Translations under genes and position numbers: made by a program | Notes under the pieces: model-generated | Databases searched by the model: none | Told to the model about the DNA's origin: nothing | Seen by the model: only the letters and a program-made list of their open reading frames with translations | NCBI GenBank assembly: GCA_022821845.1 | Contig: JAJECT010000019.1 | Span: 1 to 64,000 of the forward strand | Source of the DNA: Rhodothermales bacterium | GTDB taxonomy: Bacteria > Bacteroidota > Rhodothermia > Rhodothermales > VXPQ01 | Direction: 5' to 3' | DNA length: 64,000 nucleotides | In this document: positions 8,294 through 62,620 of the stretch, in pieces | Layout: the number at the start of each line of letters is the position of its first letter | How positions within the stretch are numbered: the stretch's first letter is position 1

Positions 8294-8695
8294 TCAATAG
8301 AGATACGCAAGCACCTCGCCGCCAATGTGCGCCTTGCGGGCCTCCTTGTCGGTCATCACGCCGCGCGACGTGGACAGGATGGCGATGCCCAGTCCGTTCA
8401 TCACGCGCGGCAATTCGTGGGCGCCCACGTACTTGCGCAAACCCGGCGTGGACACCCGCTTCATCATGCGAATGACCGGCTCGCCCCGCCCGTCGTACTT
8501 CAGGCGGACCCGCAGGAAGCCCTGCTTGCCGTCGTCCACGTTGACGTAACTGCGGATGTAGCCCTTATCCAGCAATATCTGCGTGATGGCTCGCTTTTGT
8601 TTCGAGGCAGGTATGTCCACGTATTTGCGCCCGGCCTGCTGGCCGTTGCGAATGCGCGTCAGGTAATCTGCAACCGGGTCTGTTATGCCACTCAT
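8294..8695 (-). CDS. rpsH: 30S ribosomal protein S8
   Basis: Primary 16S-binding protein S8, 133 residues. The start is ATG at 8695 (MSGITDPVADYLTRIRNGQQ), chosen because the longer open frame to 9076 runs through rpsN in another frame. The C-terminal STSRGVMTDKEARKAHIGGE motif is diagnostic. In enterobacteria S8 controls spc-operon translation at the rplE start; no such site is evident here. It lies between rpsN and rplF. Confidence 0.98.
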   Translation of the reverse strand: MSGITDPVADYLTRIRNGQQAGRKYVDIPASKQKRAITQILLDKGYIRSYVNVDDGKQGFLRVRLKYDGRGEPVIRMMKRVSTPGLRKYVGAHELPRVMNGLGIAILSTSRGVMTDKEARKAHIGGEVLAYLY

Positions 8696-57459: not shown

Positions 57460-58479
57460 TCAGGGCCCGTCCGGGAGCGCCGACCCGATCTCTGCGTGAT
57501 CGCCGATGTTCACCCTGCGCGCGCCCGGATGCACCTGGGCGTGGCTGCCGATCAGCGAATCGGCCAGTACCGCGCCATGCACGACAGCCCCGGAAAAAAC
57601 AATGGACCGCTCCAGCACGGCGCGGCGTACGTCGGCGCCCGCCTCGATAGAAACGTACGGCCCCACGACCGAATCCGCGACGCGCGCCCCCGGCCCGACG
57701 TAGACCGGCGGAACGACGATGCTGTTTTCCACCTCGCCCAGGCAAGCGTCGGCGTCTTCTTTCTCCAGAAGCCGCCGGGTCGTTTCCATGAGGGCGGGAA
57801 TGGTGCCGCAATCAAGCCATTCCGAAACGGGCGCGGTCGTAAACGCGTCGCCGCGCTTGATCATGCGGTCGAACGCGTCGGTGAGCTGAAATTCCCCGCC
57901 CTTCCCCCGCAGGTCGTCGGCGATAATCCCCTCGATGGCGCCCCGGAGTTCCCCCAGCTCGCGAACGTAATAAATGCCGACCAGGGCTTCCGTAGAAATG
58001 GGTTCGGACGGTTTTTCGACCAGTTCCACGACCCGGTCTCCCTCCCGCACCGCAACCCCGAACCGGCTGGGGTCCTCGATATGCTTCACCATGGCGACCA
58101 CGTCGGCGCCCTGGAAATCCAGCCCCGCCTCCATATCGAACACCGTATCCGCAAAAGCCACGACGCCGGGGCCTTGCAGGTAGTCCCGGGCCGCGTCTAC
58201 GGCATGGGCCGTGCCCTGCGCCGTTTGCTGTACCGCGAACCGGGGGCGCATGGCGTGCCGGGCGCATATTTCCCGCAGCATGTCATACGCATTTTCGCCA
58301 AAATCCGGGCCCAGCACGAAAACGCCTTCCTCCAGAGGCGCAGGCAATACGCGCTGAAACGTATCCACGATCCGCTCCACCATGCTGCGTCCCCGGACGG
58401 GCAGCAGGGGCTTGGGCGTAACATGGGAATGGGGCCGAACGCGCGTACCGCGACCAGCCATGGGAATGACAAGTTTCAT
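57460..58479 (-). CDS. sugar-phosphate nucleotidyltransferase with left-handed beta-helix
   Basis: A 339-residue enzyme. The N-terminal nucleotidyltransferase domain has the signature MKLVIPMAGRGTRVRPHSHV with TPKPLLPV, and acidic metal residues in VVAFADTVFDM. The family's VEKPSEPIS follows near 150. From about residue 250 the sequence changes to hexapeptide-like repeats (GPGARVADSVVGPYVSIEAG), a short left-handed beta-helix. It resembles glucose-1-phosphate thymidylyl- or mannose-1-phosphate guanylyl-type enzymes; the sugar is not resolved. Its upstream region contains the palindrome array at 58661-58802. Confidence 0.88.
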   Translation of the reverse strand: MKLVIPMAGRGTRVRPHSHVTPKPLLPVRGRSMVERIVDTFQRVLPAPLEEGVFVLGPDFGENAYDMLREICARHAMRPRFAVQQTAQGTAHAVDAARDYLQGPGVVAFADTVFDMEAGLDFQGADVVAMVKHIEDPSRFGVAVREGDRVVELVEKPSEPISTEALVGIYYVRELGELRGAIEGIIADDLRGKGGEFQLTDAFDRMIKRGDAFTTAPVSEWLDCGTIPALMETTRRLLEKEDADACLGEVENSIVVPPVYVGPGARVADSVVGPYVSIEAGADVRRAVLERSIVFSGAVVHGAVLADSLIGSHAQVHPGARRVNIGDHAEIGSALPDGP

Positions 58480-58660
58480 AAATCCGATTCGCTACAGGGC
58501 GCGCCGACGAGGCGACGAATGCGCGCATAATACAGATTTCAGGGGATACGGTTCTTGTAAAATCGCCAGAGCGCGGCGCCGTTTTCCAGAAAAACCCGGC
58601 TGAACCTTCGCTGCGCTTGCACGATGCACAGGCTCCCGCTTCCTCGCGCAAAATCTCTTC

Positions 58661-58802
58661 TATGCATATTTTGCATAGATCAGCCCCATTCTATGCAATT
58701 ATTGCATAATACGCCCCATTTCTGTGCGATTACAGTCGCAAACCGGCTTGCCTTTATGCATTTTTTGCATAAAAACCCTCGACACTATGCAATAATTGCA
58801 TA
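58661..58802. promoter_or_regulatory. array of TATGCA-N5-TGCATA palindromes with ~31-bp spacing
   Basis: Four perfect 17-bp palindromes lie at 58661-58677, 58692-58708, 58755-58771 and 58786-58802. Their centres are 31, 63 and 31 bp apart. Midway in the 63-bp step is a degenerate palindrome (TGCGA-N6-TCGCA, 58725-58740), giving five units at a ~31-bp period. The 14-bp interiors of units 1 and 2 share GCCCCATT. All copies would face the same side of the helix. This looks like an operator array or protein-binding centromere-like site. It lies about 180 bp upstream of the nucleotidyltransferase start. The rest of the 58480-59111 gap has the inverted repeat at 58942-59048 and nothing else I recognise. 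Confidence 0.85.
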
Positions 58803-58941
58803 CAGGCCCTTTTTGAATGCGCTGACTAAGGATACAAAAATCAAGCGCTGTGTGGAATGCAATGACGGGGCGCCTGTCCCCCTGCTCGCAAGACAAGGCG
58901 CCGGACGGTAATCAGCGCATCCTTGCAAGCGTTTACCCTCC

Positions 58942-59048
58942 GGGGTCTGGGGTGCGCCTTTGCACGAATACATAAGGGTACGACAGACGATAAGCTGGCA
59001 TGCTTATTCAGGGCCCGATGTTTCGTGCAAAGGCGCACCCCAGACCCC
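58942..59048. repeat. perfect 27-bp inverted repeat with 53-bp centre
   Basis: The arm at 58942-58968 (starting GGGGTCTGGGGTGCGCC) is the exact reverse complement of 59022-59048. Partial pairing continues inward for about five bases. The centre carries no open frame. It lies 64 bp downstream of the end of the T9SS protein gene (minus strand). It could be a terminator-like stem, a MITE-like remnant or a recombination site. No T-run follows the stem on either strand. Confidence 0.8.
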
Positions 59049-59111
59049 GCAACCGCTTCTCCTGACGAAACGGGAGGAGGGGGCATTCCCCGCAGTCCGT
59101 TGGAGAAGCGG

Positions 59112-62100
59112 TTACTTCAATAGCGCCATCGTCTTGACGGCGGTTTGTTCTTCGGTCCGAAGGACATAGAGATACGTCCCGCTGGCGAGGTTCGACGCGT
59201 CGAACGGAACGCGGTAGCGCGCCGCCGGGCGGACGCCGTCCACGAGGACCTGCACTTCCTGGCCGAGCAGATCGTACACCGCGAGGGTGACGTGCTGCGT
59301 CCTGTCCAGCGCGAACGCGATGGTCGTCGTCGGATTGAACGGGTTCGGATAATTCTGCTCCAGGGCGAAGGCGGTCGGTATTTCGCCGCCCGCCGATTCT
59401 ATCGACGTTACGCTGGCTTCCGTAATCGTAACTTCGACGGACGCCTGTGCGCCCGCCGCAAGGCCCGCAGGCAGCGTTCCGAGCGCCACGGTGAACGTTT
59501 CGTCGTACAGGTCGTCGTCCGCCGTCGTCGAGATCACGCCCGTTCCGTTCGGTTCGTTCGCGTCGATAACGATGGAAGCGAGCGCGCCATAGTCCCCTGC
59601 TTCGGCGTCGCCCGGCGTCAGGACAAGCGGAATGTCGGCGTCGCTCGAAAATAACTGCGAGAGGCCGACCGTAACGGTTATGTCCTCGCCCTCCAATACG
59701 GGGTTTGGAGAAACGGACAGCGTAACCCGGGATACGTTGTCGCCGCCGACCGCATTTCCGCCGCCTGCGATCGCATTTCCACTGCCGCCGTCGCCGCCGA
59801 CCGTATTTCCGCCGCCAGCGCCGCCGTCGGTACCGCTCCCGCCGTCGTTGTCGTTATCGTTGTCGCCGTCGTTATCGTTGTCGCCGTCGTTATCGCCGTC
59901 GCCGTCGTTATCGTTGTCGCCGTCGTTGTCGTTGTCGTTGTCGTTATCGTTGTCCGTGATAGTCAGGGTAAATACCGAGGCGCTGCCCACGTCGTAGCCC
60001 GTCCCGCTCGCCAGCGTCAGAATAACCGTCTCGCTTGATTCGCCCGCGCTGTCGTCCGTGATGGCGACAGGAATGTTCACGGACGCATCGCCGCCGCTGA
60101 CGCTCGCCGTGCCGCTATTGCCCGTAACCCCGCTAATCGCGTAATCCGCATCCCGCGTCGCGGTGCCGGACAACGTATAATTCAGCGTGATGGCGGCGGA
60201 CGGCGCGGGACTCAGGTTGACCGTCACATTCTGCGCCCCGGCGCTCTCCGACGCGCTGGCCGAAGCCGAGGCGAAGCTTGCCACCGGCGTGGCGGGCGGC
60301 GGTGGCGGAGGCGGAGCCGTTCCGTCGTCGTCCGCAATCGTAATGGTCGTCTGCGGCGTTGCGCCAAGATCGTAGTCCGCGCCGTCGGCGAGGTCCAGAA
60401 TAAGGGTCTCCGCCCCTTCGTCCAGCGCGTCGTCCGCGATGGTAACCGTAATATTGCCGGAAGTCTGCCCCTGAGCGATATTCACGGTGCCGCCCAGGCT
60501 GCCGTAGTCGCTGGAACCGGCCGTGCTTGAACTGTTCGCCGCATAGGCCACGCTCAGCCCGCCCGACGGGGCGGCCTGCGAGACGTTCAGCTGTACATTC
60601 ACCGTCCGGCTGCCCGCTGCCTCCCCGCCGGAATAAGCGGCGGAGGCAAACGTGGCCACCGGCGGCGCCGGGTCGGGCGCAACGTCGTCGTCACCCGTTC
60701 CGGCCGACGGGAGGGGGGGGGGCGCCGGGTCGGGCGCGACGTCGTCACTCATTCCGGCCGGCGCCACATTGATGGTCGTGGAGCTGGCCAGATCGTCCAG
60801 GAACTGCGTGTCGCCGTTCCCGTCCTCATAGGCCGGGGTGACGGTGACAGTGAGCGTCATGGCCTCCGCGGCGTTGTGGGAGAACGACCAACTCGTGTCC
60901 GTGTGGCCGTTCACGCCGCGCTGGACGTAGTTCAGTGGATCGACCAAGGCGCTGGTGGACTCGTACTCCACCCGGTAGCTTGTGGCGTGCTCCACCGCGT
61001 CCCAGGTCACCCTCGCGCTGGCGGCGTCCACCGCCGTCACCTGTACGTTGGAAACAGAGGCGGTCGGCCGCGACGGCGCCGCCGTTTCGTCGCTGCTGCC
61101 CTGCCCCAGTGGCTCGTTACGTTCCACCACGCCGACCCGCATGTAATTGCTGACGCCGTAGCCGCCGCCGGAAGCCGTGTGCACTATCGAGAAGCGGTCA
61201 TTGTCGCCATCGGTGTCGCGGTCGCCGCGCACGTACATCAACTGCGTCTCGAACCAGTTGTCCTGGGTGAACGTCATGCTCGACGGGCTGATGTGGACGT
61301 TGTTCCAGTCGCCGTCGCCGTCGCCGTCGTCGCGCCGCGCCCAGTTCACCGTCACGTCGCCGTTGGGCGGGGATGCGAGCCGCACCGTGTAGCCGCCCCC
61401 GCCGCCCTCGGGCATGGTCAGCCCGCCGAACATCGGGGTGCTGGACGTGAGGATCAGGCCCCGGGGATGGTCGTCGTCGACCACTTCCACCGTAGCATAA
61501 CCGCGGCCGACCTCCACGTGGTAGTCGCTCGAGGGCACCAGGCGCACCGTGACGGCGCCGTCGGCCTCGCTGTTGCTGTCACCCGACGTGGGAACCTGGA
61601 ATATCTTCGCCGCTCCGTCCCGCCAGGGATGGATGGCCATCGTCTTCGTGCCCTCGTTGCTGGGCGCCACGAAATTCTGCCCCTCGCCCGTGTCCTCGGA
61701 GACCTCAAGGGTGACCGTCAGCTCCTTGGGCGCGGCCCAGTCCGTGCTGACCGTCACCGAGAAGCCCGCCGCGGTCCCCTCGACCACCGGGGCGTAAAAG
61801 CCGCCCGTCTGTCCGGGCACGTACTTGCCGTGGCGGGCGATCGCGATCCGCGGAAGGCTCCCGGCGTCCTGGTCGTCGTCCTGGATGTTCACGTAGGCGA
61901 AGTCCGGCGTGCCGAGGGTGACGCCGGCGGGGAGCGAGGATGTCACGATGTCCAGCCGGAACTGCTCCGTATCCTCCTTGTTGGGATCCTCCACGGTTTG
62001 GATCGTCCCCGTGCCGCGGGTCTCGTAGCGCGGTATCGTGACCGTGATCCGTTGGTCAATGAAGTCGACGCCGAATGCCGTCGCCGAGAGCGCGCTCGGA

Positions 62101-62381
62101 TGGAGTTCCACCGTCGTGTCCGTCCTGCGGGACGCGGACAGCACCACCTCCACCTTCGCCGCATCGCCCTCCCACACAGCGTAGTTCTGCGTCGAGAAGG
62201 AGACGGTCTGCGCGGCGGCCGGGGCGGCGAGGGCGAGCAGTAATGAAAGGGAAAACAGGCCCGGCCACAGGCTGAAAGCGAATCGGGAGGACGCCCGGCG
62301 AAGAAAGACGAAACTCGGGGCTTCAGATGCGGAATTCAGGCGGCGGCGCAACAAAAGCCACGGAAACATTGCTATCCTCAT
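59112..62381 (-). CDS. T9SS-secreted Calx-beta multidomain surface protein
   Basis: A 1089-residue exported protein from ATG at 62381 (another ATG lies four codons later). A long basic N-terminus precedes the signal core FSLSLLLALAAPAAAQ. Calx-beta-like domains recur, each ending in acidic DDD-type segments (near 110-140, 560-660 and 690-790). A fibronectin-like domain (VQVTAVDAASARVTWDAVEH) lies near 440-530. A linker of Asp-Asn and Gly repeats spans about 795-875. Another Calx-beta-like domain follows, then the C-terminal sorting domain with FALEQNYPNPFNPTTTIAFA and a KTMALL-type end, which directs type IX secretion and surface anchoring. It is probably an adhesin or structural surface protein. 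Confidence 0.9.
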   Translation of the reverse strand: MRIAMFPWLLLRRRLNSASEAPSFVFLRRASSRFAFSLWPGLFSLSLLLALAAPAAAQTVSFSTQNYAVWEGDAAKVEVVLSASRRTDTTVELHPSALSATAFGVDFIDQRITVTIPRYETRGTGTIQTVEDPNKEDTEQFRLDIVTSSLPAGVTLGTPDFAYVNIQDDDQDAGSLPRIAIARHGKYVPGQTGGFYAPVVEGTAAGFSVTVSTDWAAPKELTVTLEVSEDTGEGQNFVAPSNEGTKTMAIHPWRDGAAKIFQVPTSGDSNSEADGAVTVRLVPSSDYHVEVGRGYATVEVVDDDHPRGLILTSSTPMFGGLTMPEGGGGGYTVRLASPPNGDVTVNWARRDDGDGDGDWNNVHISPSSMTFTQDNWFETQLMYVRGDRDTDGDNDRFSIVHTASGGGYGVSNYMRVGVVERNEPLGQGSSDETAAPSRPTASVSNVQVTAVDAASARVTWDAVEHATSYRVEYESTSALVDPLNYVQRGVNGHTDTSWSFSHNAAEAMTLTVTVTPAYEDGNGDTQFLDDLASSTTINVAPAGMSDDVAPDPAPPPLPSAGTGDDDVAPDPAPPVATFASAAYSGGEAAGSRTVNVQLNVSQAAPSGGLSVAYAANSSSTAGSSDYGSLGGTVNIAQGQTSGNITVTIADDALDEGAETLILDLADGADYDLGATPQTTITIADDDGTAPPPPPPPATPVASFASASASASESAGAQNVTVNLSPAPSAAITLNYTLSGTATRDADYAISGVTGNSGTASVSGGDASVNIPVAITDDSAGESSETVILTLASGTGYDVGSASVFTLTITDNDNDNDNDNDGDNDNDGDGDNDGDNDNDGDNDNDNDGGSGTDGGAGGGNTVGGDGGSGNAIAGGGNAVGGDNVSRVTLSVSPNPVLEGEDITVTVGLSQLFSSDADIPLVLTPGDAEAGDYGALASIVIDANEPNGTGVISTTADDDLYDETFTVALGTLPAGLAAGAQASVEVTITEASVTSIESAGGEIPTAFALEQNYPNPFNPTTTIAFALDRTQHVTLAVYDLLGQEVQVLVDGVRPAARYRVPFDASNLASGTYLYVLRTEEQTAVKTMALLK
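59842..59956 (-). repeat. GAC/AAC-type short tandem repeats coding an Asp-Asn linker
   Basis: A run of 6- and 12-bp units alternating GAC, AAC, GAT and GGC codons encodes DNDNDGDN-like repeats in the T9SS protein. The region is prone to slippage and could vary in length between strains. The Asp density suggests calcium binding or a flexible spacer. Confidence 0.8.
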
Positions 62382-62620
62382 GATTCGATGCCGTTCAGGG
62401 GGGAAACAGGATTTGTCGTATATATTCGCGCAGGCAGAGCGTGCACGCGTCAAACAGACAAGATAGAAAAAAAGAAGTCGCAAAATATGAAAAAATGAAG
62501 AAGGGGCAAGCCCGCTTTTTTTCGCCGCACGGGGAACACAGGGTCCGGGATACAGGTATTTTCTTGTTGATTCGCTGTTTTTCCGTCCCGCTTAAACCGT
62601 AAACGTAATACACACGCGCC

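Follow-up and report, generated by a model that had tools for sequence, protein, structure and literature searches.

Within one genus of Rhodothermales, a palindromic motif that forms an array in a 64,000-nucleotide stretch of genomic DNA (the window) has spread, as pairs of sites, to about ten to fifteen chromosomal places, some of them inside essential genes. The unit is a pair of TATGCA-N5-TGCATA palindromes with a centre spacing of 31 bp, and we consider it likely that these are paired boxes bound by the tetramer of a LysR-type transcriptional regulator (LTTR) of the BenM/CbnR type.

The window array contains the four perfect palindromes that had originally been predicted, and is located between a sugar nucleotidyltransferase gene, the start codon of which is 182 bp away, and a Calx-beta/secretion-tail protein gene (Table 1). 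Consecutive spacings of the four sites are 31, 63 and 31 bp. The original prediction had described five sites with a single period of about 31 bp, counting a degenerate palindrome near 58732, however this position holds TGCGA-N6-TCGCA (58725-58740), with a spacer unlike that of the motif. No site was found there at three or fewer mismatches, and even the best register carries at least six mismatches in 12 (6-7), which rules out a five-site periodic array. The interior sequence said to be shared between the repeat units, GCCCCATT, is indeed common to the spacers 58678-58691 and 58709-58722, but to these two only. When its flanks are included, site 1 agrees at 8 of 10 letters with the published extended LTTR consensus, CTATA-N9-TATAG (PMC6018408).

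Table 1 Features of the window array, its surroundings and the candidate regulator gene
Feature	Position	Strand	Description
Site 1, TATGCATATTTTGCATA	58661..58677		Exact TATGCA-N5-TGCATA; with flanks CTATG-N9-CATAG
Site 2, TATGCAATTATTGCATA	58692..58708		Exact match; 31 bp from site 1, together pair A
Inter-pair segment	58709..58754		Contains the claimed fifth palindrome; 63-bp gap corresponds to six helical turns
Site 3, TATGCATTTTTTGCATA	58755..58771		Exact match
Site 4, TATGCAATAATTGCATA	58786..58802		Exact match; 31 bp from site 3, together pair B
Sugar nucleotidyltransferase (NTP_transferase) gene	57460..58479	-	Pfam PF00483; nearest gene downstream of the array
Calx-beta/secretion-tail protein gene	59112-62483	-	Other neighbour of the array
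Array and downstream leader block	58494..58802	-	About 80% identical to L045:8337-8646 (blastn)
Stretch missing in L016	58572..59034		463 bp including the array; the DNA on its two sides matches L016 5824-5909 and 5910-6099, which directly adjoin
LTTR gene	G000:C29:11284-12186		Outside the window; PF00126 4.2e-21, PF03466 4.8e-39

Two further repeats were observed in this part of the window. Adjoining the array is an inverted repeat whose perfect 28-bp arms enclose a 53-bp loop (58941-58968 / 59022-59049); it has a relative at L049:8175-8287 (about 80% over 113 bp) and could therefore belong to a dispersed class of small hairpin elements, whilst a low-complexity repeat coding for Asn/Asp/Gly (NDNDGDND) lies within the Calx-beta secretion-tail protein at 59830-59960.

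Scanning the whole genome for the motif, as the original prediction had proposed, returned 26 exact sites as compared to none for the reversed-pattern control. A search for two boxes 31 bp apart, allowing at most three mismatches, identified 24 pairs in the window genome (G000), 25 in G001 and 10-13 in G003, G005, G040 and G041, again with none for the reversed control, and chance can be excluded as their source. Across the arrays of these six genomes, neighbouring sites are spaced by 31 bp in 85 cases and otherwise by 32 (1), 52/53 (2), 63 (4), 73 (2) or 83 bp (1), and the unit is thus the 31-bp pair, not a five-fold period. G000 and G001 carry four-site arrays, and the other species single pairs. 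The gaps between pairs measure 31/32, 52/53, 63, 73 or 83 bp and are therefore in step with the DNA helical repeat. With one value per locus family, a repeat of 10.4-10.5 bp gives a phase coherence of about 0.98 (simulated p ≤ 0.001), for a small set of five values in which some arrays share ancestry.

In a logo of 177 sites, T3 and A15 are 100% conserved, corresponding to T-N11-A within ATGC-N7-GCAT, which is preceded by C or T and followed by G or A; at its centre, A and T account for 94% of the five bases. Half-sites vary independently (position 6/12: AT 111, AC 27, GT 27 and GC 8), and single changes at position 4/14 are never compensated. Taken together, the fixed 31-bp pairs, the phasing at 10.4-10.5 bp and the independent half-sites lend good support to the original suggestion of a helically phased site for a dimeric protein that would bind cooperatively. 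A literature search for the motif letters gave nothing relevant among the matches listed.

Exact sites number 8-26 per genome within the genus, compared to 0-3 isolated ones in other families (40 relatives searched), and pairs number 10-25 per genome within the genus, with essentially none in other families of the order. Grouping the loci of six genus genomes by their flanking DNA gave ten orthologous locus groups that are common to at least four of the six. Among the conserved loci are the coding sequences of lptD and adk, the space behind gyrA, which is shared with a convergent neighbour (an aminotransferase gene), and the promoters of ruvA, exonuclease I and the LTTR; the names lptD, ruvA and YceI reflect a reading of the protein sequences. 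A pair stands 23-29 bp before the LTTR start in all five genus genomes in which this start is assembled, 22 bp before exonuclease I, 29-31 bp before a TPR gene and 64 bp before ruvA, these genes being open reading frames picked near arrays and checked by conservation and partly by Pfam, with distances that are approximate where starts are uncertain. Many pairs lie less than 200 bp from a start codon, and several stand behind gene 3′ ends.

On the closed chromosome of G040, which has its skew origin near 0.62 Mb and its terminus near 1.95 Mb, the pairs are found 0.13-1.25 Mb from the skew origin and do not cluster at origin or terminus. We therefore rejected a parS/matS-like partition or terminus site, the pairs being dispersed across the whole chromosome, and the partition-like site entertained in the original prediction is unlikely. 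Each genome also encodes two Bac_DnaA proteins, of 487 aa and about 420-444 aa (G040:C1:611580-612062 and 415745-416230), with counterparts of both genes in the five other genomes and the second one near the GC-skew origin in G040. Two pair loci of G041 with identical boxes, 3.5 kb apart (L067:5162-5209 and 8626-8673), are apparently a recent local duplication. A sequence of ~45 bp at L086:4291-4335, with about 17 matches in G005 at 84-97% identity, represents a dispersed repeat family unrelated to the paired boxes.

Codon positions argue that the pairs in lptD and adk are maintained at the DNA level by selection. In the lptD half-sites, 0 of 8 third codon positions vary across the six genomes as compared to 359 of 615 (58%) elsewhere (p = 0.001), and in those of adk one of five varies as compared to 94 of 147 elsewhere (p = 0.07). 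Both pairs sit in frame. The adk residues under the site differ from those of the outgroups, where a stretch of the type VPDDVIV stands in place of LC(T/I)N(C/D)II in the genus, and protein length is unchanged; the adk site therefore arose by substitution, not insertion.

The window array itself is a lineage-specific extra copy, a young and dispensable member of an old set of sites, because it duplicates a core locus and the closest relative has no array at this position. Together with its downstream leader it matches L045:8337-8646, one of the conserved core loci, which is flanked by genes for an aromatic amino acid decarboxylase and a YceI-like protein. In L016, the closest relative found, the nucleotidyltransferase is 97% identical and the array is missing. 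Since L016 retains the gene-proximal portion of the block, beside the nucleotidyltransferase gene, the pattern points to a deletion; in L017-L019, which are more distantly related, the upstream DNA is unrelated. One end of the L016 deletion falls in the right arm of the 28-bp inverted repeat. Absence of the array from close relatives had been put forward as evidence against the original prediction: the array is missing from L016 at this locus, but about ten other loci are conserved.

The original prediction had also proposed a search for an HTH gene preceded by the site, and the LTTR gene answers this description. The protein has about 300 residues with N-terminal HTH_1 and C-terminal LysR_substrate domains. 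Its closest solved relatives belong to the LysR family and include BenM, CbnR and CatM (phmmer E about 1e-32 to 1e-40); their recognition helices can be aligned with that of the genus LTTR. The latter is the sole PF00126 protein in G000, G001, G040 and G041, whilst G003 has others. We did not find it in G005, which has 11 pairs; because contig C328 of this genome starts 2-3 nt after the LTTR stop, this absence looks like an assembly gap.

A set of 245 genomes of the class supplied LTTR relatives from outside the genus. Four orthologs of ~50% identity (L136, L161, L162 and L163), which share ancestry and so represent fewer than four independent events, carry the motif ATGCR-N5-YGCAT at 23-31 nt ahead of their start codon, as does L137 (40%); the motif is present before five of five footprinted relatives but before none of 38 other LTTRs. 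Its five occurrences in 183,570 bp of outgroup DNA equal the number at the five LTTR promoters. Genome-wide in the outgroups, their form of the motif, GATGCR-N5-YGCATC, is at background, with 1-6 matches as compared to 0-4 for controls, and the LTTR promoter is among the matches in four of the five outgroup genomes. In related genera the motif is essentially confined to the promoter of the regulator itself. The other-family orthologs also display, as read from the sequences, an apparent ATGCA half-match about 22 bp upstream of the box.

Although the original prediction knew of no named system with this motif, its geometry is that of an LTTR box: T-N11-A in an interrupted dyad of about 15 bp, and such a box precedes the regulator gene itself in five genus genomes and in five outside relatives. 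Paired 15-bp LTTR boxes are usually 7 nt apart, with centres at about 22 bp (PMC6018408), whereas the genus pairs have centres at 31 bp. Footprinting and geometry together make the genus LTTR the most likely binder of all pairs.

In the mechanism we propose, each 17-bp palindrome would receive one DNA-binding dimer of the regulator, a LysR protein of the BenM/CbnR type; two boxes exactly three helical turns apart would hold one tetramer, and the window array two, both on one side of the helix. Binding would control adjacent transcription, at the window that of the nucleotidyltransferase gene 182 bp downstream. Pairs less than 200 bp from a start codon probably control transcription. Those within a gene or beyond its 3′ end would fit better with a tetramer that serves as a local bend, a roadblock or an architectural element, not as a classical activator. 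The genus regulator would have gained genome-wide sites with a three-turn spacing in place of the usual two-turn one. The conserved pairs away from promoters, in lptD and adk and behind gyrA, count against a simple operator model.

The same pairs raise the possibility of chromosome-architecture sites: about a dozen places where the chromosome would be bent or bridged, by the LTTR tetramer or a different protein, with the control of genes as a secondary role. No promoter is expected within the lptD and adk coding sequences or between the convergent gyrA and aminotransferase genes, the G040 pairs lie unclustered at all distances from the origin, and the LysR-type DsdC shows global, partly intragenic clustered binding that its authors likened to nucleoid proteins (PMC9659370). 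Many conserved pairs, however, stand directly before start codons, as fits ordinary control, and for architecture a density of about 12 sites in 2.7 Mb is low, so that we regard an architectural role as a tentative alternative. It is doubtful that a single LTTR became a chromosome-wide architectural or insulator protein within one genus, with paired three-turn boxes kept by selection independently of promoters, even in essential genes and between convergent ones. We consider it improbable that the motif belongs to another global regulator, with the LTTR gene merely a target. A regulator gene beside one of about ten conserved loci could be chance, and G005 keeps its pairs although no copy of the LTTR was found in it, but this absence coincides with a contig end, the motif has LTTR dyad geometry, and other families retain it before the LTTR gene while elsewhere in their genomes GATGCR-N5-YGCATC does not rise above background.

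Several pairs stand behind gene 3′ ends and the transcript folds strongly (z = -7.1), as would suit RNA hairpins acting as 3′ stabilisers, terminators or leader structures. Any palindrome folds by construction, however, the centre is A+T-rich, inter-pair gaps follow the DNA helix and a terminator-like site was sought and none found; the arms vary independently with no compensatory changes, largely refuting this very improbable reading. Hardly credible is an origin as dispersed mobile repeats (REP- or MITE-like) without host function. The window array is part of a block duplicated from another locus and quadruple arrays are limited to one sub-clade, but flanks are otherwise unrelated, loci are orthologous across the genus, and the adk and lptD pairs sit in frame, that of adk having arisen by substitution and being held by selection. 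Whole-unit insertion with empty sites was not encountered, the L016 pattern fitting deletion, and for the core loci mobile repeats are ruled out by the length-neutral adk site. NtrC-type enhancers have a similar 17-bp geometry with pairs of about 32 bp, and NrdR boxes are spaced by 31-32 bp. The former were set aside because footprinting gave a direct link to the LTTR; the L052 array, moreover, faces a sigma-70-like TTGACA-N18-TATACT promoter, not a -24/-12 one. NrdR boxes were rejected on motif mismatch.

If the pairs are boxes for the LTTR tetramer, the genus offers a rare natural experiment on the step from local to global regulator: the outgroups have the motif essentially only at the regulator's own promoter with two-turn spacing, whereas the genus has at least a dozen conserved three-turn pairs, which one sub-clade has doubled into four-site arrays. 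In adk and lptD, selection acting on a binding site can be told apart from selection acting on the protein, and the possible functionality of intragenic transcription-factor sites, usually dismissed as noise, becomes directly testable.

Dispersed chromosome-organising sites are known for matS/MatP, SlmA and Noc. These are likewise palindromic and found across the chromosome, some in coding sequence, but the genus sites come in pairs with a constant spacing of 31 bp, are associated with an LTTR gene, and show no terminus or origin bias in G040. The operators of BenM/CatM and CbnR resemble the genus sites in subfamily, T-N11-A dyad, N7 core and a box at the regulator's own promoter, with BenM/CatM Site 1 being T-N11-A inside ATAC-N7-GTAT (PMC6628147). 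They are also alike in the binding predicted here, LTTR tetramers putting two dimers on two boxes (PMC4730206). They differ from the genus sites in that the genus motif is ATGC-N7-GCAT with both boxes near-perfect, the centres are 31 instead of about 22 bp apart, and each genome has about 10-25 pairs, some inside genes or behind gene ends. Such genome-wide scatter, reaching into essential genes, is unusual for the LysR family. The global, partly intragenic binding of E. coli DsdC (PMC9659370) provides a parallel, as a metabolic LTTR at many chromosomal places including coding sequence, which for the genus is predicted from motifs; the DsdC sites, mapped by ChIP-seq, number hundreds and form clusters across operons, whereas the genus has about a dozen conserved and strictly paired motifs.
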